DNA from: Candidatus Nitrosocaldus tengchongensis | Lineage (GTDB): Archaea > Thermoproteota > Nitrososphaeria > Nitrososphaerales > Nitrosocaldaceae | Length of the DNA stretch: 56,517 nt | Direction of reading: 5' to 3' | Assembly: GCA_013538675.1 (NCBI GenBank) | Contig: JACAFJ010000004.1 | Coordinates: forward strand, 1-56,517 | Shown: in pieces, positions 9,193 to 48,713 of the stretch | Numbering within the stretch: the stretch's first letter is position 1 | Layout of the letters: the number at the start of each line of letters is the position of its first letter | Made by a program: the position numbers and the translations under genes | The notes under the pieces: generated by a model | What the model saw: only the letters and a program-made list of their open reading frames with translations | Told to the model about the DNA's origin: nothing | Database searches by the model: none

Positions 9193-10971
9193 TTGGATAC
9201 AGAGGGTATAGTAGTACTGATACTCAAGCATAGACCAGATCTAAGTAGGGAAGATGTATTGAGTATGGCTAGGGAGAAGATGAAGAACATAGGTGCTGGG
9301 TACCTGACTGAACAGGGAGCCCTATTCCTTGTAGCAGCAGATCTGGGCATAAGGATAGATGAGGAGATGAGCAAGATGAGGATGAGTAGTAGTAATAATA
9401 GTGGTGGTGGAGGAGCAATCACAGCGCTCAAGGACCTCTACTCTGGTGCAAGGGATGTAAGCGTAGTTGCTAGGGTCATGAAGATATACCCTGTGAAGAG
9501 GTATGGCAGGAAGAGTGATGGAACGGTATCAAGGTTGAGGAGGCTAGTGGTTTATGATGATGAGAAGAGTATGAGTGTGAACCTCTGGGATGATATTGCA
9601 GATTCCATTGAGAGGCTTGGTATAAAGGCTGGAGATGCTATAAGGATATCAAGGGTGTATATCAAGAGTGGTCTAGATGGTAGCAGTCTAGTTATAAATA
9701 CTGGTATGAGGAGCAGTGTAGAACCTCTTGGCTCTGACTACTATGATGATATCGGTAGAGGTAAGGGTATGAGCATAAGCATAGAGATAAAGAGGCTTGA
9801 GGATATAGCAATAGATGTTAGCGATATAGTATACAGGGTAGGGGAGGAGGAGGGGAAGGGAGATAACTTTGTAGTTACAGGCATACTATGCTCCAACCCT
9901 ATAATATCTACCTACAGGAATAAGGATGGTGAAGAGAGCAAGGTCATGAGTATGCTACTTAAGGGCAGTACATCCAAGGTTAGGGTGGTTGTATGGGATC
10001 TTAACTATGCAAACCTAGCAAAGGTGATGCCCCTCAACTCTAAGGTTATGGTAACTGGTGTAAGGGTTAGGCGTGATGGAGATAGGGTAGAACTCCATGG
10101 TGATTCTGGAAGCATAATAAAGACCCTTGAGCATGGATGGAGGTATCATAGCACTGGCAGTAACATTGAGTCTAGCAGCGATGGGGATTACTTGGAGTTG
10201 ATGAGGTTGAGGGTACTTGCCATAAATAGTGGTAGCAGTAATGATGATAATGAAGAAGAAGAGGGTAAGTATAGCATTGGTAGTAGTAGTAATGACAACA
10301 ACAGATATGCCATAGTGGTGGTTGATGCTGCGGATGAGGTTAATCATCATCATGATGATGAGGAGGAGGCTAAAGCAGCATTATACCTCTTGGATATCTC
10401 ATCACTTGCTGATAGAAGCAGGGTTGTGATGAAGGAGGGTATGAGTATAGAATGCATACCTAGCAGGTTTCTAGGCTACACGATATACTTGGATGAGGAC
10501 TCATACGTAGCAAGTAGAGATGAGTATGATGCCAAGGGTAATGGAACTGGATACGAACCCATAAGCAAGATAATAAGTATGGAGGAGGAGAATCTATACG
10601 CTATTGAGGTTATCGTGCTAACCATGCCTAGAGTAGATGAGGTAAGGCGTAGGGATGGGAGCGTGAGCAGGTATGCAGAGGTCTTGGTAGGGGATGATAC
10701 AAATGAGGCAAGGCTCATCGCATGGGATAAGCAGGTAGAGAAGATAGAGGCTCTAAGGGTTGGGGAGAGGATAAGGCTCTACGGTGTTGTTGTTAGGAGA
10801 AAGACAATAGCAAGCAAGAGGAGGAGAAGGGGGGATTATGATAATAATAATACTTTCTACTATGATACCACTAGTAGTAGTAATGATAGTAATAGTGATG
10901 ATAACAGTAATAGTAGCGATGTTTATGAACTTAACGTAAAACCGTTCACTATCATAAGGCATATCGGCTAG
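9193..10971 (+). CDS. RPA-like single-stranded DNA-binding protein
   Basis: The 592-residue protein resembles archaeal replication protein A. Its start (ILKHRPDLSREDVLSMAREK, then LTEQGALFLVAADLGI) is the typical N-terminal helical segment. At least three OB-fold-like regions follow: about residues 80-175 (DVSVVARVMKIYPV), 215-310 (FVVTGILCSNPI) and 470-540 (YAIEVIVLTMPRV). Such proteins coat single-stranded DNA in replication and repair. No zinc finger is visible. Long Asn/Ser/Asp-rich inserts (about residues 55-65, 335-375 and 535-580) are encoded by AGT/AAT/GAT repeats and are probably disordered linkers. The TTG start is supported by the TATA box and by family similarity from the first residues. 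It converges with the Lhr helicase gene. Confidence 0.85.
   Translation: MDTEGIVVLILKHRPDLSREDVLSMAREKMKNIGAGYLTEQGALFLVAADLGIRIDEEMSKMRMSSSNNSGGGGAITALKDLYSGARDVSVVARVMKIYPVKRYGRKSDGTVSRLRRLVVYDDEKSMSVNLWDDIADSIERLGIKAGDAIRISRVYIKSGLDGSSLVINTGMRSSVEPLGSDYYDDIGRGKGMSISIEIKRLEDIAIDVSDIVYRVGEEEGKGDNFVVTGILCSNPIISTYRNKDGEESKVMSMLLKGSTSKVRVVVWDLNYANLAKVMPLNSKVMVTGVRVRRDGDRVELHGDSGSIIKTLEHGWRYHSTGSNIESSSDGDYLELMRLRVLAINSGSSNDDNEEEEGKYSIGSSSNDNNRYAIVVVDAADEVNHHHDDEEEAKAALYLLDISSLADRSRVVMKEGMSIECIPSRFLGYTIYLDEDSYVASRDEYDAKGNGTGYEPISKIISMEEENLYAIEVIVLTMPRVDEVRRRDGSVSRYAEVLVGDDTNEARLIAWDKQVEKIEALRVGERIRLYGVVVRRKTIASKRRRRGDYDNNNTFYYDTTSSSNDSNSDDNSNSSDVYELNVKPFTIIRHIG
10834..10925. repeat. trinucleotide repeat tract in the RPA-like gene
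   Basis: An interrupted run of AAT, AGT and GAT units encodes a disordered stretch of Asn, Ser, Asp and Tyr near the C-terminus of the RPA-like protein. The frame is kept throughout. Confidence 0.75.
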
Positions 10972-11058
10972 ATGAGAGAACTCATAATATCTCTATATCT
11001 ACTCATATATGTGTAACCTAACTATTGATAATTATATCCAATCCTAACCCAGACTTAA

Positions 11059-14000
11059 TTAATCATCCCAGAACCCTCTAGTTGTTATATACTGCCTCTC
11101 AGCCTCATATATGTACTTCACCAGCATCTCATCCTGCTCGTAAGCATAGTTCTTGAGCATCCTCGCTGCAGTATCAACCCCTATACCATATCCAGATAGT
11201 ACGAGTAGTGCCCTCCTCCCAAATGTATGTACTAGGGATGCAGACTTCCATGCCCTCCTGAATCTATGCTCCTGCTCACCATCAAGTCTAGCATTCCTTA
11301 CCTTGAGCAATATAGCATTGTATGTATCATCATCATAAGGATGTATTGCAGCAACTATCCTTGAGTTGCACTTCAAGCATGCTATCTGCTCTGGAGCATT
11401 GCCAACCTCAACTATTCTGTTGGATGCACACTTGAGGCATACAAGTCTATGCTTGCTCTTCATAAGCCTATTCCTTACCATTTCCATTACTGCTTGCTCG
11501 TTACTCAATGGGCTTGAGTATGCTCCAACCCTAATCCTACTCCTCTCCATCATAGGTTCTGCAAGAGGGGAGAATAGATTACTACTACTACTACCATTAC
11601 CTTCTTCTCTCACATCCCTCCATACCATCTTGAACCTTCCGTCCCTTAACCTTTTTATTATGCTCTTTGCACCATCAACATCGTACTTCTCATGCAACAC
11701 CTCCCTTAGCGCTTCCCTAACTATTGGTGTATTAGCATATCTCTCATAGATCATCCTTGCTATCTTCTTATCGTACATGGCATTAGCATCAACAAGACCA
11801 AAGCGTTTCGCTACATTCCATACGCTCCAGCTGAGGTTGTGTGTATCCTTGAGCGATACTCTTATTATTTCTTCAGCATCGTAATCATCTACTAGACAAT
11901 CAATGATATGCTTCTTGCCTATCCTTGCTGTTGAACTCAGCATTATCCTATAAGCATCAGACCTTACATTGACTATATACCCAAGGCTTGATGATATTAT
12001 GGTTGATAGTAATGATGCCAATGTATTGTTTATCCTTGTGCCTAAGCATGCATGTATGATCACAAGGTTAGGAGAGTATTCTATAACGAATGTCTTATCA
12101 TCTGGTACGATGTTACCCAACTCCCTATAGGCATCTATTAATAATGCCCTGCTCATTATATCATTATTGATCCTACCCTGTACTATAAGCCTCCTCATCA
12201 TACCTACCAGTTGTGCAGTTCTATGATCAACTGGTATCATCTCACCACTCCAGTATGGTACGTTTATGCTCATAGCATAGTAAGGCTCAACGTTGACCCT
12301 CATCCTAGCATAGTCTACTGCAAGTATCCTCCACTGCATGCCTTTGAGTATGAATACATTGCCCTGCTCACCATAATCTCCTACAAACTCCTGATCTAGA
12401 GAGCCTATGACTCTATTGCTTGCGGTGTCTACAACATCGAACTTGAGTACATCTGGTATCATGGATGCGTTATCATAGTAGTATGCTCTAACCCTAGCAG
12501 CCCTGAACCTCAACCTATCTCTATCGAACCTCACTATACCATTCTTGCTGAGGAGTTCTAGGCAATCCATCATATCATTAATGTTGATATTCCTGAACTG
12601 GTAGGCTCTCCTTACTAATGCTAGTGCTTCCTCAACGCTAACCTCAACATCCTCCTTCTTCTTCTTACCATCCTTATTACCATCTCTGCTGTTGCAATTA
12701 TCATTGTTATTGTTATTACTACCATCATTACCATCTATATTGTAGCGCTCCAATGCTAGCCCTACAAGATGGTGTGCAAGAACATCTAGAGGAGACTCAT
12801 GGATCCTCTGCTCCTCAACATCCCCCTTTGCAAGTCTCTTGAGTATTGCAAGTGCCTCAATCTCATCATCAGCACTGTTAGTGAATATTACTCCCTTGGC
12901 TGATTCTGTGGATCTATGCCTACTCCTCCCTATCCTCTGGGCCATCTTGGATACCTGTCTAGGAGAGCCATAGTGTATAACAGTGCTTATAGAGCCAACA
13001 TCTATACCAAGCTCTAGGGAGGATGTGCACACAACAACATTGGTTTGTTCTGTATCACCATGATGATGATAATGGTCATCTCCATCGCCCTTACCCTTAC
13101 CCTTACCCTTATCACTGCTCTTATAACCATCTCTACCCCTAAGCCTACTCTCTGTCTCCTCCCTAACCTCTCTGGAGAGTGAGCCATGGTGCACATCTAC
13201 ACTTATAGTAGCATCATCGATACCCTCACGCATTATACTTGCCATGTATTCAGCCTCATCCCTAGTATTTGTGAATAAGAGTATCGATCCTCTATTGCTA
13301 GATTTAGCACTCCTTATATATCCTATTATATGTTCTGCTACATCTGTTATTGGCGCATCTATATACACTACATCAACATCATACTTGCGGAGAGAGTCAT
13401 CAACTATTATTGCACACTTGCTACCCCTCCTCCCCCTCCTTCTTCTTATTTCCTTACTATTACTACTACCATCATCATCATAACATGCACATACATCACC
13501 ACCTCTAACATATGATATGAACTTGGCTGCAGTATCTAGATTGCCAAGGGTTGCACTCAACCCTACCCTTACTACCCTTCTACTCGATAACCTCTCAACC
13601 CTCTCAAGACTCAAGGCTAGGTGTGCCCCACGCTTGTTCGCTAGCAGTTCGTGTAGTTCATCTATGACTATCCATTCTAGAGCATGGATTGCTCTAGCCA
13701 TCTTCCCTACTAGGATTATTGCTAGGGTCTCTGGAGTAGTTATGAGTACATCTGGAGGATCATCCTGTATCTTCCTCCTCCTATAACTACTTGTATCACC
13801 ATGTCTAACAGCAACACTCAAGCCTAGCATCCCAGCATAGTGTACAAGCCTCCTAAGCATATCCCTATTCAATGCCCTTAGCGGGGTTATGTAGAGTACC
13901 TTTACCCCTTTGACCTTAGCATTATTATTATTATCATCATAATAATAATTATTATGATGATTAGCCTCTGCTACCATGGTAAGTATGGGTATCATTGCAG

Positions 14001-14241
14001 CCTCTGTCTTCCCTGAGCCAGTAGGTGCCACTATGAGCGAGTCTCTCTTTCTAGCAAGAATTGGTATGCTCTTCCTCTGTATAGGCGTTAGTCTAGAGTA
14101 GCCTAACCTATTGAAGGCTTCTAATATCCTACTCTCTAACTTTCTGTAAGTACTGCTTTTGTTGTTGCTGCTACTGCTACACCTGTTAGTGGTGGTATGG
14201 CGATAGTATCTATCTGTGATGCGTGATCTATCACTATCCAT
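11059..14241 (-). CDS. Lhr-type superfamily 2 DNA helicase
   Basis: The 1060-residue protein has the helicase motifs in order: Q-motif region (LTPIQRKSIP), Walker A (APTGSGKTEAAMIP), Walker B (VIDELHELLANKRGAHL), motif III (LSATLGN), motif IV (LLFTNTRDEAEYM), and motifs V-VI (SSLELGID, QRIGRSRHR). DELH followed by ANKRGAHLALSLERV is the Lhr signature; these enzymes unwind DNA and RNA:DNA hybrids in repair. A winged-helix/Lhr-core region follows. Near residue 970 two CxxC pairs (CLKCAS and CLKCNS) form a zinc ribbon. The usual length is near 900. The excess lies in Asn/His/Asp-rich inserts (near residues 96-107, 385-400 and 505-530). It starts just downstream of a TATA-like element. Confidence 0.88.
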   Translation of the reverse strand: MDSDRSRITDRYYRHTTTNRCSSSSNNKSSTYRKLESRILEAFNRLGYSRLTPIQRKSIPILARKRDSLIVAPTGSGKTEAAMIPILTMVAEANHHNNYYYDDNNNNAKVKGVKVLYITPLRALNRDMLRRLVHYAGMLGLSVAVRHGDTSSYRRRKIQDDPPDVLITTPETLAIILVGKMARAIHALEWIVIDELHELLANKRGAHLALSLERVERLSSRRVVRVGLSATLGNLDTAAKFISYVRGGDVCACYDDDGSSNSKEIRRRRGRRGSKCAIIVDDSLRKYDVDVVYIDAPITDVAEHIIGYIRSAKSSNRGSILLFTNTRDEAEYMASIMREGIDDATISVDVHHGSLSREVREETESRLRGRDGYKSSDKGKGKGKGDGDDHYHHHGDTEQTNVVVCTSSLELGIDVGSISTVIHYGSPRQVSKMAQRIGRSRHRSTESAKGVIFTNSADDEIEALAILKRLAKGDVEEQRIHESPLDVLAHHLVGLALERYNIDGNDGSNNNNNDNCNSRDGNKDGKKKKEDVEVSVEEALALVRRAYQFRNININDMMDCLELLSKNGIVRFDRDRLRFRAARVRAYYYDNASMIPDVLKFDVVDTASNRVIGSLDQEFVGDYGEQGNVFILKGMQWRILAVDYARMRVNVEPYYAMSINVPYWSGEMIPVDHRTAQLVGMMRRLIVQGRINNDIMSRALLIDAYRELGNIVPDDKTFVIEYSPNLVIIHACLGTRINNTLASLLSTIISSSLGYIVNVRSDAYRIMLSSTARIGKKHIIDCLVDDYDAEEIIRVSLKDTHNLSWSVWNVAKRFGLVDANAMYDKKIARMIYERYANTPIVREALREVLHEKYDVDGAKSIIKRLRDGRFKMVWRDVREEGNGSSSSNLFSPLAEPMMERSRIRVGAYSSPLSNEQAVMEMVRNRLMKSKHRLVCLKCASNRIVEVGNAPEQIACLKCNSRIVAAIHPYDDDTYNAILLKVRNARLDGEQEHRFRRAWKSASLVHTFGRRALLVLSGYGIGVDTAARMLKNYAYEQDEMLVKYIYEAERQYITTRGFWDD

Positions 14242-22806: not shown

Positions 22807-24291
22807 TCATCTCGCTGAGTATCTCCTGCATGAGTATATGAACGTTTCAACCAGACTCTTGCGTGAGAAGTGTAGATGCATGTATGATGCAAGTGTATTC
22901 TGCATTATGAACCCATCCCTCTTACCATCAACCCCCTTGCCTCTTAGCATCTCATATGCAAACCTACTATCCCCTGCTATATCAGCAAGGGTTGAGTAGT
23001 GGAACTCATGCCCTCTAACCATACTACCAGGATCAGCAATTATACATGATGGGGCATCTACCCTAGCCTCCGTATAGTTCAATGTAAGCCTCCTATCCAT
23101 TATAGTATCTGCATCTATGAGCCCAACCATATTGTACTTTGAGCCATCAGTATCTGTTATGCTCCTGCTCAAGTACATGAGCCCTCCACACTCAGCATAG
23201 ATTGGCATGCCATCCTCAGCATTATCCTTTACTCTCTTCATCATCTCTGCATTACTTGCAAGCATGGATGCTAGGACCTCTGGGAAGCCTCCCCCTATGT
23301 AGAGACCATCGCACTCTGGAGGCTCCTCATCCTTTATGGGGCTGAAGTACACTACTCTAGCATACCTTGAGAGCATCTCCAAGTTATCAGCATAGTAGAA
23401 GTTGAATGATTCATCAAGTGCAACACCTATGATAACATCCTTCCTTGAATATGAATGGTCTACTACTACTGCATCATCATCATTATCTACCTCTACCCTT
23501 TCATGTTTGAGCCTTGATGATGATGATGCACTCCTTGCAATATCAAGTATCCCATCAACATTGATATACTCGCTAACATACCTTGCAGTTGCCAATGCAT
23601 CATCCCTAGCCTTGCTACTCTCATATGTTGGTACAAGCCCAAGGTGCCTCTCCTTCAATCTTGTATCCTTGTTACGCCTCACAATACCAAGCACTGGTAT
23701 ACCCTTCTGCTCAAGCGCATCCAAGCAGTACCTAGCATGTCTATCCCCTGCTACGTTGTTGAGTATAACGCCCTTAACCTTAACCTCTCTGTTGAATTCT
23801 ATGAACCCTAAAGCCATGGCAGCAACAGATCTAGCTGCCTTGCTTGCATCTATAACAAGTATAACTGGGCTATCGAGCAGGGTAGCAATGTATGCAGTAC
23901 TGGCATAATCATCAATACCAGATAGGCCATCGTAGAGTCCCATAACCCCTTCTATCACTGCTATCTCTGCATTACTTGTATGCATTGAGTTGATGAAGCT
24001 CTCGACTACACCATCCTCACCCATGAGCCAAGGATCTAGGTTCCTGCTTGCTACTCCAGTTACACTTGTATGGTATGATGGGTCTATGTAATCAGGCCCA
24101 ACCTTGAAGCCTTGAACTTTATAACCCTTCTCCTTAAGGGCATACATTATACCTATTGTTATACTAGTCTTGCCTACACCGCTGCTAGTCCCTGCTATGA
24201 CTACTCTTGCATGCCTCTGCTTCATACTATTGTTATTATTGTTATTATTATTCTGCCATGCGTCATCTTTATCAGTACTCATATTACTCAT
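22807..24291 (-). CDS. cbiA: cobyrinate a,c-diamide synthase
   Basis: The enzyme amidates the a and c carboxylates of cobyrinate using glutamine and ATP. The N-terminal dethiobiotin-synthetase-like ATPase domain shows AGTSSGVGKTSITIGIMYAL and VGPDYIDPSYH. The C-terminal class I glutamine amidotransferase domain has the nucleophile in YAECGGLMYLS and a downstream GHEFHYS histidine. ATG 24306 lies only about 10 bases from the TATA element, so ATG 24291 is preferred; it gives 494 residues. An Asn run (NNNNNNNNS) near the N-terminus is encoded by AAT/AAC repeats. It converges with cbiC and is divergent from cobO. Confidence 0.93.
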   Translation of the reverse strand: MSNMSTDKDDAWQNNNNNNNNSMKQRHARVVIAGTSSGVGKTSITIGIMYALKEKGYKVQGFKVGPDYIDPSYHTSVTGVASRNLDPWLMGEDGVVESFINSMHTSNAEIAVIEGVMGLYDGLSGIDDYASTAYIATLLDSPVILVIDASKAARSVAAMALGFIEFNREVKVKGVILNNVAGDRHARYCLDALEQKGIPVLGIVRRNKDTRLKERHLGLVPTYESSKARDDALATARYVSEYINVDGILDIARSASSSSRLKHERVEVDNDDDAVVVDHSYSRKDVIIGVALDESFNFYYADNLEMLSRYARVVYFSPIKDEEPPECDGLYIGGGFPEVLASMLASNAEMMKRVKDNAEDGMPIYAECGGLMYLSRSITDTDGSKYNMVGLIDADTIMDRRLTLNYTEARVDAPSCIIADPGSMVRGHEFHYSTLADIAGDSRFAYEMLRGKGVDGKRDGFIMQNTLASYMHLHFSRKSLVETFIYSCRRYSAR

Positions 24292-24308
24292 GCTTTGAAT
24301 GAGCATGG

Positions 24309-38553: not shown

Positions 38554-39519
38554 TCATTGATTGACTTTAGTATCGACTATGTTGGTGTTGGTATCCACAT
38601 CAGCCTTGGCCTTGATATATTCTGCTCTATACCTTGCAACCCTCTTTGCTATCATCGCTGCAAGTACACCAGCACCAACCCCATTATCTATATTCACAAC
38701 TGCAAGCCCTAGAGTGCAACTCTGAAGCATGGAGGTTAGTGCTGCAACACCACCAGCACCAAATCCATAGCCTACAGATGTTGGTACACCTATAACAGGC
38801 ACATCTACAAGCGATGCTACTACAGATGGTAACGCACCCTCCATACCAGCAACAACAACTATTGCATCAACATCTTTAGTAAGCATATCCTTAAGTATAG
38901 GGAATAGTCTATGCAGTCCAGCAACACCAACATCGTAACTTGTAATAACCTTGCAGCCCATAGCCTCTGCCACAAGCTTTGCCTCTTCAGCAACCCCTAT
39001 ATCTGATGTACCTGCAGTTATAACCCCAACTGTACCTGTATAGTAATCATAACCATTGTCGTTACCATTACTACTACTATTATTATTACTATTACTACCC
39101 TTCTTACTACCATCGCTATCATCATATTCCTTCTCCTCCTCCCTTCTCGCTACAGCTATTATCCTACCCTTCTTACTACTCTTCACTGTAAGATGTCTAC
39201 TACCACCACTGTTACTGCTGCTACTATTACTACTACCCATCAACTCCCCTACCAGCATATCAATATACTCCTGCTTAACTCTACTTATGACAATGCTATC
39301 CTTGCTCTTCAATGCAGTTACTGCTATATTTACCAGATCACTGTACTCCTTACCCTCAGCATAGACTATCTCTGGCACTCCTCTCCTCAACTCTCTACCA
39401 ACATCAAGCCTTGCAATATCCTCAACATACTCTATCTTGTGTAACTGGAGCATCTTTTCGGCATCGTCTATGCTGATCTTGCCATCGCTCAACGCCTTCA
39501 GTATATCCCTTATACTCAT
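38554..39519 (-). CDS. larB: nickel-pincer cofactor carboxylase LarB
   Basis: LarB carboxylates and hydrolyses nicotinic acid adenine dinucleotide, the first step of nickel-pincer nucleotide synthesis. The N-terminus ([22 protein letters not shown]) and the PurE-like C-terminal domain ([62 protein letters not shown]) match the family. Two Asn/Ser/Gly-rich inserts (near residues 94-107 and 139-157), encoded by trinucleotide repeats, are not part of the fold. The enzyme acts in the cytosol before LarE and LarC, which are encoded about 5 kb away. The start is fixed by a TATA box 27 bases upstream. Confidence 0.9.
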
Positions 39520-39604: not shown

Positions 39605-41566
39605 CTATCCATACTCATACACTATACCCTTCTCCCCTCTTGTATGTCTCCATTCAGTCTCCCCTGAGCATGTACCACACTCTATGCATCCTTCATGCTG
39701 TAGTATAACATTGGATACAACTGCCTTTAACCTTGCCTCTGTCTTTACCCCTTCTCCTTTACCAACCTCCTCCTTTCCTTCCATCTCTTCACTAGCCTCC
39801 ATCATATAGCACCTCGTTGGGCAGAGATGGACCATAGCCTTTATGAACCTGCTTCTAGGATCCTTTATTCTTATGTGGGGAACCTCATCCTCCCTTATCT
39901 TTAACCTTGCTATCCTCTCATCTATACTCAATGGTCTTACCTCTGCTATAGGCTTCACTTCACTCCCAACCTTTCTAGCAACCTCCATTGGTATCCTAAC
40001 GTATGCATCGTTGCTCTCTATTATCTTGAGTAACGTGCTCTGAGCCATCATCCTTGCTATCGCTGCTGCTAACTCCTGCACTGCTGTCTTCTGGATGAGC
40101 ATGAATGCAAGCCTTAGGAAGAGTGGGAATGGTTCAAGGGGTATGTTCCCACATGCTCTAACGAATATCTTCATATACTCGAAATCTATTCTCCTTATAT
40201 CATCTGTATACGGGCTCTCCTCTACAAGTTGTGTATAGTATCTGCCCATGTAATCTTCAGAGAAGTTGTTCATCTTTTTTGCCATTGCTACTGCTCTGGC
40301 AGCTCTAGCAGCATCATCTATCCCTATGTTTATACCTTCTATCCTCGTGCCTAGGAATATGCCTTTGCCAGCAGCATCCCCTATGAATAGTATGTTATTC
40401 TTGTACGGTTTACCCATCATCGCCCTCTTGCCATCTGGCACCAACTTGCATGAATACTCCATCTCAACGTAGTTCTTTGCAAATGTAACACCATACTCCC
40501 TCTCCAACCTGCCCCTAACCTCTTCCAATCTAGTCTTTATCTCATCCTCGTTACTGTATAGCCCTCGCCTTATGGCATCAAGCCTTGCATGCTTTGAGTA
40601 GTAGGTGTATCTCAACTCCTCATACTGTTTGAGTAACCTACTCAACCCAAACCTTATCCTCAACTGCTCCTCCTTTGGGAGCGTTCTATCCAACTCCTTC
40701 GGCACTGCTACCTCATCAACTATGTAATTTGTTACTACAGGGATCGTTAGGAACTCGTTGAGTAAGTTGTAAGGTTCTATTGGACTCTTCAGCAGGGAGT
40801 CTAGATGGTATACAAGCCCTACAGATAACGTATCCCTGTTAGTGTACAGGAAGCCTCCTCCATTATGCCCTTTCGATATATCTCCAGCGAAGAGGTGTGC
40901 TACACCCTCATCACTGCTTATATTGAACCTCTCATCCATTACATCCTCTGGAAGCCTAACTATGCACTTCACACCTTGGTAGAGTGCTTCAGGCTCGAAC
41001 TTTCCTCTAGCGTTAGAGATGAGTGCTACCTCAGAGTTTACACCATCTGCTGCTATTATTGCTCTTGCACCAAACTCCTCCAGCTCATCAGTAACTATTA
41101 TACTATTCCTACTACCTCTACCATCATCCATCCATACTATATCCCTCACATGCACACCCTCTATTATGCCTCCACCCATCTTTGCTGCCTCCTCCTCAGC
41201 CCTCGCAGCGAACCACTTGTTCAGCCTAGACATTAGCACTGAATACGCAAAGTTTGTTCTATATTCATGTGCCTCGCTTAAATCTACCGTGTATACCTTG
41301 CTTCCAGATAATGCGTTAAGGTAGTAGCGTGTGATCCTCCTCTCTACTGGAGCCTCATCCAAGAAATCAGGGTAGATATCCTCAACATTGTACACCTTGC
41401 CATTGGGGTAGTTCTTTGAGTAGAGTATGCCACCAGTTACACTCTTGGAGCCTATAGGTTTACCAGACTCTAGAAGCACAGCCTGTATACCCAGTTTAGA
41501 TAACTCCATCAGCGCTGCTAGCCCTGCAGAGCCTCCTCCAACTATCACAGCATCGAACCTATCCAT
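39605..41566 (-). CDS. fixC: FixC-type flavoprotein dehydrogenase fused to a FixX-like ferredoxin
   Basis: Residues 1-430 form a FixC/ETF-quinone-oxidoreductase FAD domain: VIVGGGSAGLAALMELSKLG, GSKSVTGGILY, and FIGDAAGKGIFLGTRIEGIN. The last 90 residues contain LCPTRCY and, after a Glu/Lys-rich linker, CIECGTC followed by TEWRHTRGEKGIVYEYG. That is the FixX ferredoxin end, with cysteines for one [4Fe-4S] cluster. FixC takes electrons from ETF, and FixX passes them on. The 653-residue length fits a FixC-FixX fusion with a linker. It is the third gene of etfB-etfA-fixCX, 20 bases after etfA. Confidence 0.88.
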   Translation of the reverse strand: MDRFDAVIVGGGSAGLAALMELSKLGIQAVLLESGKPIGSKSVTGGILYSKNYPNGKVYNVEDIYPDFLDEAPVERRITRYYLNALSGSKVYTVDLSEAHEYRTNFAYSVLMSRLNKWFAARAEEEAAKMGGGIIEGVHVRDIVWMDDGRGSRNSIIVTDELEEFGARAIIAADGVNSEVALISNARGKFEPEALYQGVKCIVRLPEDVMDERFNISSDEGVAHLFAGDISKGHNGGGFLYTNRDTLSVGLVYHLDSLLKSPIEPYNLLNEFLTIPVVTNYIVDEVAVPKELDRTLPKEEQLRIRFGLSRLLKQYEELRYTYYSKHARLDAIRRGLYSNEDEIKTRLEEVRGRLEREYGVTFAKNYVEMEYSCKLVPDGKRAMMGKPYKNNILFIGDAAGKGIFLGTRIEGINIGIDDAARAARAVAMAKKMNNFSEDYMGRYYTQLVEESPYTDDIRRIDFEYMKIFVRACGNIPLEPFPLFLRLAFMLIQKTAVQELAAAIARMMAQSTLLKIIESNDAYVRIPMEVARKVGSEVKPIAEVRPLSIDERIARLKIREDEVPHIRIKDPRSRFIKAMVHLCPTRCYMMEASEEMEGKEEVGKGEGVKTEARLKAVVSNVILQHEGCIECGTCSGETEWRHTRGEKGIVYEYG

Positions 41567-41586
41567 TTACATACACCAACCAACTA

Positions 41587-42777
41587 CTATGATGAACCCA
41601 TACCTTTTATACTCTCTATCAGGATTGGTAGCACATACTCCAACCTTCCCTGTATGAATATATCGCTCTCATCCTTTATTGGCGCATCTGGATCAGGGTT
41701 TATAGCAATGACTGTATCACTCTCCTTCATCCCAACAAGATGGTGCATTGCACCACTTATCCCTATTGCTATGTACAGTTTGGGAGCAATCTTCTTGCCA
41801 CTACTCCCAACAACCCTAGCAGGTATGAGGTACCTCTCCTTCAGTGCACTGCTCACACTGAATGGTTGCTTAGATAATGGGAGTGATATTGCAACCTTTG
41901 CATTTATGAGTTGAGCGAACCCCTCTATCATCCTTATATTATCCTCTGGATCATCTTTTATGCCTCTACCAAATGCAACTACAATCTTGCTATCCTCTAG
42001 CCCTATCTCATCCCTTATTATCTGCCTTCTCACTATCCTATACCTAAGGTCATCGCTATTGAACTCTGGCTTGTACTCCACTATCCTAGCGTATCCTTCC
42101 TCAACCCTCTTCCTTGCATCACCATCGTATTGCAATGGTTTGAATACCCCAGGTATGACACTGCATGCTTGGGGAGAGTACTCCCTTGCTATTGCTGGGT
42201 TCTTATTGTCAAGGCAGAGTATCTGGGTCCAGAGGAAGCCAGAGAAGTCTGGCCTGTACATGAAGAGTACATGCTTGTAGAGTTCAGGCTTGCCATTTGT
42301 CTTGTACTGATGTGTTATCGTAACATCATCTATCACAAGTTTGTTCACATCAGATGCAAGCCCAGACTCCAACTCTGCTAGAACAGTAGATGATATATGC
42401 CTCCCTATGCTATCAGCACCAAAGAGCATGTACCTTGGCTTTACATACTCATCACTTGTGCTTTGTGCTGCCTGCTTTACAAGCGATCTATCCCTTACTA
42501 TTGCAGATATAACTTTGGTGTACAGGTTAACCCTTGGATACCTCAACTCCTCATGATCTGCAAATATGACTGCATCTGCACCAGCGTCTATTGCTCTATA
42601 GGCAAGTTCCCTTACGTTCTGCCCTAGGAGTACTGCTATAACCTTCTCATCAAGAGCATACCTACCATTGAACTCGTCCATGAGCCTCCTTGCCTCACCA
42701 AGCATCTCATAGCTAACGTTCAGTGCATTGCCATCATCATGCTCGAATAATACAAACATGTGCTGATACCTCACCAT
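41587..42777 (-). CDS. etfA: electron transfer flavoprotein alpha subunit
   Basis: The C-terminal half has the EtfA FAD-binding signature: VVAFGRGIKDDPEDNIRM, VGSSGKKIAPKLYIAIGISGAMHHL and VIAINPDPDAPIKDESDIFI. The N-terminal half is the AMP/FAD-type nucleotide fold with HDDGNALNVSYEMLGEA. With EtfB it forms the heterodimer that passes electrons from dehydrogenases to FixC. ATG 42777 is preferred over GTG 42792, because GAGGTGA lies a few bases upstream of it. It begins four bases after the etfB stop. Confidence 0.93.
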   Translation of the reverse strand: MVRYQHMFVLFEHDDGNALNVSYEMLGEARRLMDEFNGRYALDEKVIAVLLGQNVRELAYRAIDAGADAVIFADHEELRYPRVNLYTKVISAIVRDRSLVKQAAQSTSDEYVKPRYMLFGADSIGRHISSTVLAELESGLASDVNKLVIDDVTITHQYKTNGKPELYKHVLFMYRPDFSGFLWTQILCLDNKNPAIAREYSPQACSVIPGVFKPLQYDGDARKRVEEGYARIVEYKPEFNSDDLRYRIVRRQIIRDEIGLEDSKIVVAFGRGIKDDPEDNIRMIEGFAQLINAKVAISLPLSKQPFSVSSALKERYLIPARVVGSSGKKIAPKLYIAIGISGAMHHLVGMKESDTVIAINPDPDAPIKDESDIFIQGRLEYVLPILIESIKGMGSS

Positions 42778-42781
42778 CGAC

Positions 42782-43678
42782 TCACCTCTCACCCAACGCT
42801 ATGTTAAGGATGAGGTTCCCAATCTCTCTCAACTCCTCTACATTATTTGGATCCACAACCTTTGCCCTTCTACTTGCCTTTGCCTTTGGTATCTTCTCAA
42901 CTTTGTAGACTATGGTTGGGGAGCCAGCAAGCCCTATATACCTGACATCAACACCAAGGTCCTTTGCACTCCATATCCTAAGGTAACTCTTGTAATCCTC
43001 TGCCCTCTTCCTTGCTTCCTTCTCTAGCCTAGCGTATCTGAGCCTCTCTGATACCTTTCTGTAGTTATCCCTATAACTTGGATCTAAAGCAATGAGTGCA
43101 GGTAATGGACATTCAACATCCTCAATGATGGTGTATAATCCAGGGAGATCAACCTTCCTCCTAGCATTGATCATCCTACTCCTTAGATCTATGCTGTACT
43201 CTATAACATTGCCTATGAAGTTGAACCCTAGCTTCCATGCCGTCTGGGGACCAGTCTGCCCAGTCTCACCATCAACTGCCCTATGCCCACTGAATACTAG
43301 ATCTATCCTCCTCCCCATCTTCATGATGCCATGCTTTATGGTCTCTGCAGTTGCAAGCGTATCTGCACCAGCGAATATCCTATCGCTGTAGAGGTGGAGT
43401 TCATCTGCACAGCATATAACCATGGCATCCTTGAGTGCTATCTCAGCTGTAGGAGGGCCCATAGAGCATGCACCAACCCATGCATCATAGCATACCTTTG
43501 CATACATTGCTGCCCTGCATGCTATTGCACTATGAGGTCCAAGTATGTTCTTTGTCTGCGATCTGTTCAGTGTGCCATCTGGGTTGTAACTCACATTCCC
43601 CTCTGATAGATCTGGTTCAAGTTTGACCATCACTGCTGCATTTATTACACCCTCACCATCATCATCATCCATACTCAT
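42782..43678 (-). CDS. etfB: electron transfer flavoprotein beta subunit
   Basis: The 298-residue EtfB/FixA protein has the typical elements: VMVKLEPDLSEGNVSYNPDGTLN, VDGETGQTGPQTAWKLG (nucleotide-binding loop), and a C-terminal arm (EKIPKAKASRRAKVVDPNN) that wraps around EtfA. The loop GHRAVDGETGQTGPQ is present in both conventional and bifurcating ETFs. An acidic leader (DDDDGEG) precedes it. It is the first gene of the etfBA-fixCX unit. Confidence 0.92.
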   Translation of the reverse strand: MSMDDDDGEGVINAAVMVKLEPDLSEGNVSYNPDGTLNRSQTKNILGPHSAIACRAAMYAKVCYDAWVGACSMGPPTAEIALKDAMVICCADELHLYSDRIFAGADTLATAETIKHGIMKMGRRIDLVFSGHRAVDGETGQTGPQTAWKLGFNFIGNVIEYSIDLRSRMINARRKVDLPGLYTIIEDVECPLPALIALDPSYRDNYRKVSERLRYARLEKEARKRAEDYKSYLRIWSAKDLGVDVRYIGLAGSPTIVYKVEKIPKAKASRRAKVVDPNNVEELREIGNLILNIALGER

Positions 43679-43759: not shown

Positions 43760-44674
43760 TTAGATCTCTACAGATCTTATAGCTTCCCTAACAGCATTAA
43801 CACCATTCTCGAATACCGTTCTCTCATCATCGTTCAACATTACCTCTATTATCTCCTCTACACCCTCTCCTCCTATCACTGCTGGTACACCTATGCAGAT
43901 ATCGTTAACACCATACTTGCCATCGGGATATGCACATACAGGCATAACAGCCCTCTTATCACTTACTATTGCATCAAGCATCTCAGCAACTGCATTCGCT
44001 GGAGCATATATGGTTGCTCCCTTCAATGCTATAACCTCTGCAGCAACCTTCCTAGTCTTCTCAACGAGTTCCCTTGCCTTCTCATTGCTTATGAGATGCA
44101 TAAGGGGTATGCCTGCTATGGAAGAGTACCTAACCAATGGGAGCATATTCTCGCCATGCTCCCCTATCACTAGAGCCTGTATAGAATGCCTTGAGACCTT
44201 CAGTTCATCAGCAATGAAGTGCTTGAACCTTGATAGATCTAGCAGGTTACCCATACCCATGACCCTGCTTGACTTGAAGTTTGTTGCCTTCAACGTTATG
44301 TAGGTCATAGGATCGAGAGGGTTGGTTACTGTTATTACTATAGCATCCTTTGCATACTCTGCAACCTTCCTTGCAACATCCCTTACTATCCCAGCATTTG
44401 TATTCAGCAGATCCATCCTTGTCATCCCTGGCTTCCTGCCAACACCAGCAACAATAACCACAACATCTGAGCCCTGCATATCAGCGTATTCGTTGGAGCC
44501 TCTTAGGATGGTATCCTTGCCCTGCTCTGCAAGTGTATGGTTTATATCCATAGCCTCACCTTGGGGAAGACCCTTGATTATATCCAGCAGGAGTATGCTA
44601 TCATCCACCTCTCTCATCCCTGCTTGAAGTGCTATTGAACTACCAACCTTGCCAGAGCCTACTATCGTTATCAT
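43760..44674 (-). CDS. mdh: malate dehydrogenase (LDH-like family)
   Basis: The 304-residue enzyme oxidises malate to oxaloacetate with NAD(P). The Rossmann loop is ITIVGSGKVGSSIA. The substrate-specificity loop AGVGRKPGMTRMDLL has Arg at the place that distinguishes malate from lactate dehydrogenases, then the catalytic Arg. The catalytic His is in VIGEHGENMLPLV, and the substrate Arg is in LLDLSRF. ATG 44674 is used: GGAGG lies about ten bases upstream, and the earlier ATG (44713) lies beyond the promoter. It is divergent from larC over one TATA element, a link to hydroxyacid metabolism. Confidence 0.92.
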   Translation of the reverse strand: MITIVGSGKVGSSIALQAGMREVDDSILLLDIIKGLPQGEAMDINHTLAEQGKDTILRGSNEYADMQGSDVVVIVAGVGRKPGMTRMDLLNTNAGIVRDVARKVAEYAKDAIVITVTNPLDPMTYITLKATNFKSSRVMGMGNLLDLSRFKHFIADELKVSRHSIQALVIGEHGENMLPLVRYSSIAGIPLMHLISNEKARELVEKTRKVAAEVIALKGATIYAPANAVAEMLDAIVSDKRAVMPVCAYPDGKYGVNDICIGVPAVIGGEGVEEIIEVMLNDDERTVFENGVNAVREAIRSVEI

Positions 44675-44694
44675 CGTGCATGCTCCTCCAAGAT

Positions 44695-44710
44695 CATTTA
44701 TATATATTTG
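44695..44710. promoter_or_regulatory. shared TATA region of mdh and larC
   Basis: catttatatatatttg is almost symmetric and lies about 29 bases from mdh ATG 44674 and about 33 from larC ATG 44736. The two genes may therefore be regulated together. Confidence 0.45.
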
Positions 44711-44735
44711 CATGCAAAGTAAAGAGAGGAAGAAG

Positions 44736-46070
44736 ATGTATAGGCTCGTTATAGACTGCCAGACTGCAGGGATATCTGGTGATATGCTACTCTCCTCTCT
44801 AGCAGATCTTGCTACTCAAGAGGTAAGGAGGAGGATAGTAGATTGCTTATACTCATGCCAGGATGCTGTTAGTTGGTTAAAGATACATGATCTAGCATTC
44901 AAGCAGGTTAGTAGATCTGGCTTCAAGGCTATGCAATTAAGCATATCCTATGAACAGGAGGAAGAGGAAGGGGAGCGTAGAGGAGTTGAGGTTTACGATG
45001 CAGTTGCTAGATGCTGCAAACATCTATCTCTAAGCAAGAAGGCAGAGAGTTTTGCCCTTAAGAGTATGGAGGAGATAGTAAAGGCTGAGGCAGTGATACA
45101 TATGGAGGATAGGTCTACTGTGCATCTACATGAGATATCCAGTGCAGATACTGTAGTTGATATAGTTGGTACAGCACTTGCATTGCAAGAACTCAACCTT
45201 CTCGATGATGATGTTGAGATATATGCTACAAGGGTTGCTGTAGGAGGAGGCTACGTGAGTTTCTCACATGGTACAGTAAGTAATCCAGCAAGTGCCATAC
45301 TAGAGATATTCAAGGGGAGGAGGTTCACACTCATAGGAGGGCCAGTGGATCATGAACTCACTACTCCTACTGGAGCAGCGATGCTTGTAAGCCTAGCAAG
45401 ATGCTCTCTAGACTTCTATCCAGCATTGGAGTGTGTAAACGTTGGTTACGGTGCTGGTATGCAGGAGTTTACAACCATACCTAATCTGCTCAAGGTTGTA
45501 CTTGGTAGGGTTGATGAGAGGTATGCAAGAGACTCTATAATAATGCTAGAGACCAACCTGGATGATGTTGAAGGCGAACTCATAGCAGGTATTGTAGATA
45601 GACTGATGAGCAATGGTGCAAGGGATATCTCTGTCATACAGGCTATAGGAAAGAAGGGCAGACCATCATACATCCTTAGAGTGCTATGCAATAGGGATGT
45701 TATGAACAACCTTCTAGCCATAATATTCAGGGAGTCTGGTACACTTGGTGTTAGGGTTCAGGAGTATGATAGGTACATACTTGCTGGTAGGGATGTCCTT
45801 GATGTGCCTGTAATGGTAAGGGGAAGGGAGTTCAGGATAAGGGCAAAGGTTGCAAAGGATAGCGATGGAAGAGTAGTGCATGTTAAGGCTGAGTATGATG
45901 ATGTAGCATCCATGGCAGATGCACTTGGTTTACCATATAGGATAGCATACACAATGGCATGCAAGAGCATATCATCGATGCTTAATACTTGTATTGATGA
46001 GAGCAGTAGTAATAGTGATGATAGCAGTGGTAGAAGAAGAGATGATAGTGATAGTAGTAGCAATGGGTGA
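44736..46070 (+). CDS. larC: nickel insertion protein LarC
   Basis: LarC uses CTP to insert nickel and complete the pincer cofactor. The 444-residue protein shows DCQTAGISGDMLLSSLADL at the N-terminus, STVHLHEISSADTVVDIVG, VAVGGGYVSFSHGTVSNPA, VDHELTTPTGAAML and the C-terminal NLDDVEGELIAGIVDRL with GTLGVRVQEYDRY. In several bacteria the two halves are joined by a ribosomal frameshift. Here they are a single continuous frame. A Ser/Asn/Asp-rich end (about 20 residues) is encoded by AGT repeats. The ATG is preferred over earlier in-frame codons by its GAGGAAG leader and its TATA distance. Confidence 0.91.
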   Translation: MYRLVIDCQTAGISGDMLLSSLADLATQEVRRRIVDCLYSCQDAVSWLKIHDLAFKQVSRSGFKAMQLSISYEQEEEEGERRGVEVYDAVARCCKHLSLSKKAESFALKSMEEIVKAEAVIHMEDRSTVHLHEISSADTVVDIVGTALALQELNLLDDDVEIYATRVAVGGGYVSFSHGTVSNPASAILEIFKGRRFTLIGGPVDHELTTPTGAAMLVSLARCSLDFYPALECVNVGYGAGMQEFTTIPNLLKVVLGRVDERYARDSIIMLETNLDDVEGELIAGIVDRLMSNGARDISVIQAIGKKGRPSYILRVLCNRDVMNNLLAIIFRESGTLGVRVQEYDRYILAGRDVLDVPVMVRGREFRIRAKVAKDSDGRVVHVKAEYDDVASMADALGLPYRIAYTMACKSISSMLNTCIDESSSNSDDSSGRRRDDSDSSSNG

Positions 46071-46079
46071 GTTAGTTGT

Positions 46080-46928
46080 ATGAGCAGGTTGAATGAACTC
46101 ATCACCTGGTTCAGTACAAATACAGGAGCAGGGAGTATCTACAATGGATCAGCAGGATCTAGGAGTAGGGTTATAGTTGCATTCTCTGGAGGAGTTGATA
46201 GTGCAGTGGTTGCATATGCTGCCTATCATGCTCTAAGGGATGGTGCATTGGCAGTTACAGCAGATTATAATACACTTGCAAGAGATGATCTTGAAGAAGC
46301 AAAGAGGGTTGCAAGGGAGATAGGTATAAGACATGAGGTTATAGAGTATGATGAGTTGAGCAATCCAGCATTCGTTACAAATGATGGGATGAGATGCTAT
46401 CACTGTAGAGATGAACTAGCAAGGCATCTCATAGCAGTTGCAAGGAGGGAGGGTGCAGTACTTGTGGTTGATGGCACCAATGCAGATGACCTGAAGGATT
46501 ACAGACCTGGAATAATGGCTATGAGGGAGCATGGTATAAGAAGTCCACTAGCAGAGTTGGGTATATGCAAGGATGAGGTTAGAGCAATTGCAATGGAAGC
46601 AGGGTTATCTGTTCACAGCAAACCTTCCAATGCATGCTTAGCATCTAGGCTAGCCCATGGCATAGAGGTTACTAGAGATAGGCTTAGGATGGTAGAGGAG
46701 GCTGAGAGGATAGTTAAAGGGTTGTTCAACGTAAGGCAGGTCAGGGTTAGGTTACATGCAGATAACATAGCAAGGATAGAGGTTGGGAAGGATGAGCGAA
46801 GCATGCTCTTCGATACAGGAAAGCTTGATACCTTGGATGAGAGGTTGAAGGCATTAGGATTCAGATACGTTGCTATAGATGCTAGAGGATACAGGAGCGG
46901 TAGCCTGAATCTTATAGATAAGAGGTGA
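46080..46928 (+). CDS. larE: pincer cofactor sulfur transferase LarE
   Basis: LarE activates the pyridinium dicarboxylate mononucleotide with ATP and adds sulfur. The PP-loop SGGVDSAVVAYAAYHAL lies near residue 36. A CxxC pair (RCYHCRDEL, near 103) and a third cysteine (SKPSNACLASR, near 184) give the three-cysteine pattern of LarE forms that bind a [4Fe-4S] cluster, rather than the single-cysteine form that sacrifices its own sulfur. The gene lies nine bases after larC. The next gene, a cysteine desulfurase, starts beside its stop. Confidence 0.92.
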   Translation: MSRLNELITWFSTNTGAGSIYNGSAGSRSRVIVAFSGGVDSAVVAYAAYHALRDGALAVTADYNTLARDDLEEAKRVAREIGIRHEVIEYDELSNPAFVTNDGMRCYHCRDELARHLIAVARREGAVLVVDGTNADDLKDYRPGIMAMREHGIRSPLAELGICKDEVRAIAMEAGLSVHSKPSNACLASRLAHGIEVTRDRLRMVEEAERIVKGLFNVRQVRVRLHADNIARIEVGKDERSMLFDTGKLDTLDERLKALGFRYVAIDARGYRSGSLNLIDKR

Positions 46929-46933
46929 TCAGC

Positions 46934-48157
46934 ATGTACTCTGGAATGGGGAAGGAGGAAGGTAAGAGGAGGAGAACCGTCTACCTTGACAACGCTGCAA
47001 CAACACCCGTGCTTGATGAAGTGCTGGAAGAGATGCTCCCATACATGAGTTCTAGATATGGCAACCCTTCATCCCTGCATGGTATAGGGAGAGATGCAAA
47101 GACAGCACTGGATAAGGCTAGAGAAAGGATAAGCAGTGCTCTCAGCATCCACGACAACATAATCTTCACATCTGGGGCAACAGAGGCTAATAACCTTGCA
47201 ATCAAGGGCTTTGCGTATAGAAAGCTTAGGGATGGCTTTAATAGGGATGATGTAATGGTAGTTGTAAGCAGCATAGAGCATGAGTCAGTGCTAGAACCAT
47301 GCAAGGCACTGGCTAGGGAAGGGTTCAATGTAAGTTACTTGCCAGTGGATAGGTATGGTATGGCCAAGCCTGAGAGCCTAGAGCAGACATTATCCTCATC
47401 TAGGCATAGGGGTGGTGTACTTGTTAGCGTTATGCTTGCAAACAATGAGGTTGGTACACTGCAGAGACTCAAGGAGATGGTAGAGATAGCACATAGATAT
47501 GGCGCTCTAGTGCATAGCGATGCTGCACAGGCTATAGGCAAGGTTAAGGTTGATGCTGGAGCACTCGCAGTAGATATGCTTACCATATCAGCACACAAGG
47601 TCTATGGGCCAAAGGGTGTAGGTGCACTCTGCATTGGCAAGGATGTAAGGCTTGAACCCATACTCCATGGTGGTGGTCATGAGTATGGCTTGAGATCTGG
47701 CACACAGAATGTACCAGGGATAGTTGGGCTTGGCAAGGTAGCAGAACTTGTGCCAAGGTTCATTGCACTGTATCAAGGAAGGGTAAGACAACTAAGAGAT
47801 AGGTTGATCAAGGGTCTGCTTGAGATACCATACACAAGACTGAATGGTCATCCTGAGGAGAGGCTCCCGAACAATGCACATATATCGTTCCTTGGCGTGA
47901 ATGGTGAAGATCTTATCATCAAGCTTGATGAGTATGGCATAGCAGTATCAACAGGCTCAGCATGCTCAACACTCAAACAGAAGGAGTCCCATGTGCTTAG
48001 AGCAATGGGTTTAAGCAGGGAGGAGATAAATGGATCGTTAAGGTTAACTCTAGGCATACAGAATGATGAGCAAGATGTTGATTATACATTAGAGGTTATG
48101 GCAATGGTGGTGAAGGAGTTGAGGAGGATCTCACCATACAGCAAGTATAGACTTTAA
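46934..48157 (+). CDS. cysteine desulfurase, NifS/IscS type
   Basis: The 407-residue PLP enzyme releases sulfur from cysteine as an enzyme persulfide. Visible motifs: YLDNAATTP, SSLHGIGRDA, FTSGATEANNLAIKG, the PLP-binding lysine in SAHKVYGPKGVGAL (near residue 213), HEYGLRSGTQNV, and the active-site cysteine in STGSACSTLKQKESHVL, where the loop is short, as in NifS-like class I forms. ATG 46934 has a strong AGAGGTGATC ribosome site; GTG 46925 would overlap larE by four bases. It is the last gene of larC-larE-desulfurase and probably feeds sulfur to LarE or to iron-sulfur cluster assembly. Confidence 0.92.
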   Translation: MYSGMGKEEGKRRRTVYLDNAATTPVLDEVLEEMLPYMSSRYGNPSSLHGIGRDAKTALDKARERISSALSIHDNIIFTSGATEANNLAIKGFAYRKLRDGFNRDDVMVVVSSIEHESVLEPCKALAREGFNVSYLPVDRYGMAKPESLEQTLSSSRHRGGVLVSVMLANNEVGTLQRLKEMVEIAHRYGALVHSDAAQAIGKVKVDAGALAVDMLTISAHKVYGPKGVGALCIGKDVRLEPILHGGGHEYGLRSGTQNVPGIVGLGKVAELVPRFIALYQGRVRQLRDRLIKGLLEIPYTRLNGHPEERLPNNAHISFLGVNGEDLIIKLDEYGIAVSTGSACSTLKQKESHVLRAMGLSREEINGSLRLTLGIQNDEQDVDYTLEVMAMVVKELRRISPYSKYRL

Positions 48158-48194: not shown

Positions 48195-48215
48195 TTTTTG
48201 TTGGCTAGAAGGTGC

Positions 48216-48713
48216 ATGGCAAGTAGCAAGCAGGCATACAGAGTGCCAGAGGTTGGAGAGAAGGCCCCAGACTTCACTCTTCCAGACATAGAACTGAAGA
48301 TGAGGAGTCTAGCAGAGTTCAAAGGCAAGAAGGTAGTGCTAGCATTCTTCCCTGCTGCACTATCACCAGTCTGCACTAGAGAGATGTGCACATTTAGAGA
48401 CCACTTTGATGAGTTGAACAAGGCAGGGGCTGAGGTTATAGGAATAAGTATTGATGGTCCATTTGCAAACAAGCAGTTCAAGGAGGTGCATAACCTTAAC
48501 TTCCCATTGCTTAGTGATTACAGTAGAGAGGTTATAAGCAGGTATGGGATAGTTATGGAGGATCTCCTCCATGTCAAAGGTTACAGGGCAGCAAAACGCT
48601 CAGTCTTCGTGCTTGATAGAGATGGCATAGTAAGGTACAGATGGGTATCTGATAACCCTCTCGTAGAGCCAGATTACGAGGAGGTAAAGAGGATAATCAA
48701 GAGCATACCATAG
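48216..48713 (+). CDS. peroxiredoxin, PrxQ/BCP-like
   Basis: The 165-residue protein reduces peroxides. The peroxidatic motif is SPVCTREMCTFRDHF: the first Cys is peroxidatic, and the second, five residues later, is placed as the resolving Cys of PrxQ/BCP proteins. The usual elements APDFTLPD, GISIDGPF and FPLLSDYSREV are present. The protein protects against oxidative stress. The gene is monocistronic, with its own TATA box and a T-rich end. Confidence 0.92.
   Translation: MASSKQAYRVPEVGEKAPDFTLPDIELKMRSLAEFKGKKVVLAFFPAALSPVCTREMCTFRDHFDELNKAGAEVIGISIDGPFANKQFKEVHNLNFPLLSDYSREVISRYGIVMEDLLHVKGYRAAKRSVFVLDRDGIVRYRWVSDNPLVEPDYEEVKRIIKSIP

Follow-up and report, generated by a model that had tools for sequence, protein, structure and literature searches.

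Linked larE and nifS genes in a putative nickel-pincer cofactor operon of ammonia-oxidising archaea

Introduction

The sulfur insertase LarE of Thermotoga maritima carries a [4Fe-4S] cluster, retains its cysteine sulfur and works catalytically with Escherichia coli IscS, and three cysteines are present in most LarE homologues (Chatterjee et al. 2022, PMC9283937). LarE of Lactobacillus plantarum (5UDQ and other structures) uses a sacrificial cysteine, C176, and structures of an mmLarE-[4Fe-4S] form are available as 8cnz, 8cp3 and 8cp4. The genes larB, larC and larE occur without larA in about 15% of genomes, for example in many cyanobacteria (PMC11796402). For ammonia-oxidising archaea (AOA), larA was reported only in deep-sea sediment clades, to which LarA was treated as specific, in an account that does not mention nickel (PMC8397731). 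A search of the open-access literature found no relevant paper on the nickel-pincer (NPN) cofactor or larC in AOA. The linked larE-nifS operon described here, and its presence without LarA, appear to be undescribed so far.

Results

Gene content of the lar locus

The window, i.e., the whole stretch of DNA analysed, comprises 56,517 nt from Candidatus Nitrosocaldus tengchongensis. The genome carries archaeal amoA (PF12942, E 1e-107), which identifies the organism as an AOA. LarB, LarC and LarE are all present and constitute a complete gene set for NPN biosynthesis (Table 1). LarC and LarE were assigned with curated models, and LarB was assigned by a motif from sequence reading together with homology and clustering. 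The larC gene lies directly upstream of larE, and larB and the gene for an LDH-like malate dehydrogenase (mdh) are divergent from this pair. In the genus of the window, fixC-like and etfAB-like genes (39605-43678) separate larB from mdh, and elsewhere larB adjoins mdh; the fixC-like gene occupies this position in the window and in two further loci (L056 and L057) and is absent there in other families. Several window proteins (9193-14241, 22807-24306 and others) contain long Asn/Ser/Asp/Gly runs (e.g., NNNNNNNN and SSSSS), which are unusual low-complexity inserts within otherwise conserved proteins.

Table 1. Features of the lar locus, with positions in the window and the basis of each assignment.
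Feature	Position	Strand	Basis
larB, carboxylase/hydrolase of NPN cofactor biosynthesis, putative	38554..39519	-	class-wide homologue search (clusters with larC-larE-nifS), sequence-read motif, context
fixC-like ETF-quinone oxidoreductase	39605..41566	-	ORF; identity by sequence reading
etfA-like	41587..42792	-	ORF and context; identity by sequence reading
etfB-like	42782..43678	-	ORF and context; identity by sequence reading
LDH-like malate dehydrogenase (mdh), divergent from larC	43760..44713, likely start near 44674	-	NCBIfam PRK06223 382 bits, above cut-off
larC, nickel insertase, one ORF	44736..46070; ORF-list start 44649, ATG 44736 likelier	+	Pfam Ni_insertion 332 bits; NCBIfam LarC1 and LarC2 above cut-off
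larE, CxxC-C type sulfur insertase	46080..46928	+	NCBIfam TIGR00268; AF2 model
LarE PP-loop SGGVDS (S36-S41)	46185..46202	+	invariant or nearly so in 32-sequence alignment
LarE C106xxC109, proposed cluster ligands	46395..46406 (TGC 46395-46397, TGT 46404-46406)	+	invariant in 32-sequence alignment and all listed LarE loci
LarE C186, third proposed ligand	46635..46637 (TGC)	+	invariant; aligns with CMATR Cys of 8cnz
Shine-Dalgarno-like GAGGTGA, overlaps larE stop, 5 nt before ATG 46934	46922..46928	+	sequence
nifS-like type I cysteine desulfurase	46925..48157, likely start 46934	+	NCBIfam/Pfam/PDB matches
NifS PLP lysine K225	47597..47599	+	invariant in 61/61 loci
NifS persulfide cysteine C347 (TGSACS)	47963..47965	+	invariant in 61/61 loci
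peroxiredoxin, bcp/PrxQ-like	48198..48713, likely start 48216	+	Pfam AhpC-TSA; next gene after nifS

LarE carries the CxxC-C cysteine set

The larE product scored 280 bits against TIGR00268 (cut-off 150), and the top Foldseek matches of its AF2 model (pLDDT 89) were all LarE. The model matched 8cnz, labelled mmLarE-[4Fe-4S] in Foldseek, with TM 0.82/0.89 and an rmsd of 2.1, and all three ligand-type cysteines of the mmLarE structures have aligned counterparts, although sequence identity to the window LarE is 27-28%. As the preliminary description had claimed, the protein contains RCYHC, which provides the CxxC pair C106 and C109, and NACLASR, which provides C186; a fourth cysteine, C163, lies outside the conserved set. 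In 8cnz, the cysteines that align with these two motifs belong to RCYNC and CMATR, and alignment to solved chains places C186 one residue off C176 of L. plantarum LarE. The T. maritima enzyme likewise has CxxC-C with a shifted third cysteine, whereas L. plantarum LarE, which shares the fold, the PP-loop and the phosphate-site residues, lacks CxxC. These alignments support the prediction that the window LarE belongs with the cluster-binding CxxC-C forms, with its third cysteine shifted from the sacrificial position, and agree with the earlier reading of the motifs as the cysteine set of cluster-binding LarE forms.

The family model TIGR00268 is named 'sacrificial' in NCBIfam, and membership in it would suit a LarE that gives up C186 once, like C176 of L. 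plantarum LarE, with NifS being unrelated to it. Such a course is extremely unlikely, given that CxxC-C is invariant and that the displacement of the third cysteine from the sacrificial site is the one seen in T. maritima LarE, which keeps its cysteine sulfur.

The three-cysteine set was found in all archaeal loci tabulated and in 80/80 bacterial loci, which were retrieved with the LarE profile and are the top-scoring hits of a single Bacillota query. The possibility that the three cysteines are a special feature of this locus is thereby ruled out: the set is an ordinary trait of LarE in bacteria and archaea, and the mechanism has a published precedent in T. maritima.

The gene following larE encodes a type I cysteine desulfurase

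The best NCBIfam model for the next gene product was NifS TIGR03402 (E 2e-134), with 448 bits against a cut-off of 530.75, and the score against IscS TIGR02006 was 348.6 bits (cut-off 643.2). Because both equivalog cut-offs were missed, the protein is a group I desulfurase that cannot be placed within NifS or IscS in the strict sense. It belongs to the class V PLP fold (PF00266, 268 bits), with a PLP lysine and a persulfide cysteine in an SGSAC-type loop, and its closest solved relatives in the PDB are IscS/NifS-type cysteine desulfurases. The catalytic residues K225 and C347 are intact in 61/61 loci. The model, fold and residue matches thus bear out the original call of a NifS-type desulfurase, and it is hereafter called NifS.

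It had also been stated that the start of this gene touches the larE stop. With GTG 46925 as the start, the two genes would indeed overlap by 4 nt (GTGA), but ATG 46934, which stands behind GAGGTGA and begins 5 nt after the stop, is the likelier start. A third class V paralogue in this genome (G000:C2, 408 aa ORF, L091:4990-6216) lacks an evident SGxxC-type persulfide cysteine loop and is unlikely to be a further desulfurase.

larE and nifS are adjacent across AOA

We surveyed 300 genomes of the class, with a threshold of E <= 1e-60 for NifS orthologues. LarE was found in 234/300, a NifS orthologue in 206/300 and both in 196/300. Where positions were listed for both genes, larE and nifS lay on the same strand and within about 200 bases of each other in 112/114 genomes, with a median gap near zero; in the other two, the genes are on different contigs and LarE is near a contig end. 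This adjacency is far beyond chance, and the possibility raised beforehand that it occurs in this genome alone is ruled out by the same count. The larE-nifS block is kept amid changing flanks, with bcp-accC after nifS in families f1, f3 and f5 and other genes in f2. The co-occurrence of the two genes (Fisher test) is inflated by shared ancestry and by contig gaps that remove both neighbours, and no weight is placed on this test. Since such gaps take out both genes, full weight is given only to complete genomes and to family f4; 14 f4 genomes lack both LarE and a NifS orthologue.

The link was found in 0/20 other Thermoproteota loci, one of which has a NifS-like gene 2.7 kb off on the opposite strand, and was absent from the basal families sampled. 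Among the bacterial loci, some of which were shorter than the range considered, 0/80 had a class V desulfurase within 5 kb of larE. The non-AOA family f6 has the order larC-larE-sufS-sufU (L139:3611-6153 in G151, with the same larE-sufS order in G191), apparently an independent second pairing of larE with a desulfurase. The larB-mdh/larC-larE layout also occurs in f6, and mdh adjoins larC across AOA and in f6, f12 and f14, standing beside larC-larE in the latter two. From this distribution, the lar layout looks ancestral, and we infer that nifS joined it in the AOA lineage.

Relation of NifS to LarE and to the SUF system

The window's genome has a separate sufB-sufD-sufS-sufU locus (names by sequence reading), so NifS is a second desulfurase, and housekeeping Fe-S assembly is ruled out as its sole role. 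A SufS orthologue was present in 41/42 sampled genomes, the exception (G115) having only a 29% paralogue.

A NifS orthologue was missing in 22/192 amoA-positive, LarE-positive genomes. A few of these cases are contig ends (L065), and the absence is real in genus g22 and in the single-contig genome G046; no nifS remnant was found in the 14 loci without a NifS orthologue in which it was sought. The lar operon without nifS was observed in L024-L029, L033, L153 (genus g22), L154 (G264), L155 (G046) and L156 (G131), with SufS orthologues mostly present. LarE retains all three cysteines in AOA without a NifS orthologue, which indicates that another sulfur source can serve. Conversely, G185 was the only amoA-positive genome with NifS and without LarE, and this genome is fragmented.

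Type I desulfurases serve many acceptors. NifS might therefore be a general second desulfurase, acting in tRNA thiolation, on molybdopterin or on other thio-cofactors and co-transcribed with larE by chance, and LarE might use NifS or SufS unspecifically, as the persistence of LarE and SufS in AOA without a NifS orthologue would allow. However, nifS tracks the lar operon, both in its adjacency (112/114) and in its absence from the 14 LarE-less f4 genomes, and the sole NifS-positive, LarE-negative exception among amoA-positive genomes is the fragmented G185. We consider this general role unlikely, while still giving it some weight.

The evidence supports NifS as the preferred partner of LarE, and a dedication of NifS to LarE is not proven. 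The initial suggestion of a dedicated sulfur supply thus stands insofar as larE is linked, across AOA, to a second desulfurase that is not part of the SUF system, but the word 'dedicated' does not fit the several AOA lineages that have no such gene beside larE and keep a three-cysteine LarE. Comparison with the AOA that naturally lack nifS could help to reveal what NifS does.

NPN pathway genes without canonical LarA

Among 201 amoA-positive genomes, LarB was found in 192, LarE in 192 and both in 188; the LarB counts may include some PurE-like matches, though in most genomes a strong LarB match lies close to larE. A search for canonical LarA (PF09861), the enzyme of the lactate racemase system, gave no hit in the 91% complete genome of the window, and the protein was present in only 4/201 amoA-positive genomes. 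This rarity agrees with the report on larA in deep-sea sediment AOA, which concerns the same organism group (PMC8397731). The first LarA query, a Paenibacillus 'lactate racemase domain-containing' protein, had no PDB relative by phmmer and lacked LarA motifs, and the LarA tally for bacterial loci was consequently not relied on.

The absence of LarA could also mean that LarB, LarC and LarE have been repurposed in AOA for a product other than NPN. The scarcity of canonical LarA, and the LarA-fold protein described below, which lacks the NPN residues of LarA, would fit this idea, which is nevertheless very unlikely: the scores of LarE and LarC are typical of their families, the three genes stay together, and cyanobacterial larBCE genes that occur without larA make NPN (PMC11796402). 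The larBCE-only genomes of that source, as described there, share with AOA an NPN pathway without canonical LarA; in AOA, by contrast, this state extends to nearly all members of one functional group and comes with the nifS linkage.

In its C-terminal part, a LarA-fold protein of about 360 residues (e.g., L257:3290-4369, + strand) is matched by LarA_C and by NF052593, a model for malate racemase (E 6e-13 to 5e-15). Its profile matched 228/255 genomes, and some of these matches could be canonical LarA where that protein exists; the match in the window's genome (E 5.4e-47) is not among the window ORFs. The strongest Foldseek matches of its AF2 model (pLDDT 89) were all LarA-family or LarA-like (best E 5e-19, TM 0.78/0.69), and profile comparison to LarA gave 97% probability. 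The LarA residue set (D72, R75, H108, H174, K184 and H200) was not found in the AOA protein. In the profile alignment, D125 stands opposite H174 and T135 opposite K184, the H108 region lacks a convincing equivalent, and neither His nor Lys is invariant at any N-terminal position in the alignment of the LarA-fold protein. LarE-less f4 genomes also gave matches, though weaker ones (E about 1e-22 to 1e-29), and the conserved gene neighbours (pyrE-like, GNAT, Trm5-like and ABCE1-like, named by sequence reading) are housekeeping genes and not lar genes. In view of the missing residues, the presence in LarE-less f4 genomes and the non-lar neighbours, we do not accept this protein as a proven NPN enzyme, and it may be a degenerate LarA relative unconnected to NPN. 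We weakly favour the near-universal protein as a candidate NPN user, which would hold NPN without a covalent link. We tentatively propose, with somewhat less than an even chance, that NPN is produced by AOA and serves as a core cofactor of a not-yet-known enzyme.

Discussion

We consider it fairly probable that larB-mdh/larC-larE-nifS is a nickel-pincer cofactor operon in which NifS recharges LarE. In such a system, the PP-loop of LarE would adenylylate the substrate, and C106, C109 and C186 of LarE would coordinate a [4Fe-4S] cluster. A sulfide on the open iron of the cluster would be inserted by LarE, which would not be consumed; the adjacent NifS would use L-cysteine as its sulfur donor, bind the sulfur at C347 in persulfide form and recharge LarE for the next turnover, with NPN as the expected product of the pathway. 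SufS, encoded at its own locus, would handle general cluster assembly. The bacterial lar loci without the linkage (0/80), the AOA without NifS and the lack of a canonical LarA match in the window's genome count against the recharge operon.

Sulfur insertion by a catalytic, desulfurase-fed LarE is the mechanism proposed both here and for T. maritima. In T. maritima, however, the desulfurase genes lie at a great distance from larE, and E. coli IscS served as the partner in the experiments, whereas the partner gene of AOA is adjacent and conserved. The mechanism is of a known kind, and the conserved, lineage-wide larE-nifS linkage is the new part. The catalytic LarE model, so far represented by Thermotoga LarE with an E. 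coli desulfurase, gains a natural side-by-side enzyme pair in well over a hundred genomes, so that sulfur transfer can be tested with partners that belong together.

The NPN pathway without LarA in AOA is a more interesting open question than the larE-nifS linkage. AOA, which rank among the most abundant microbes, retain an NPN pathway in the absence of the known NPN enzyme, and the question of who uses NPN outside LarA becomes askable in cultured ammonia oxidisers.
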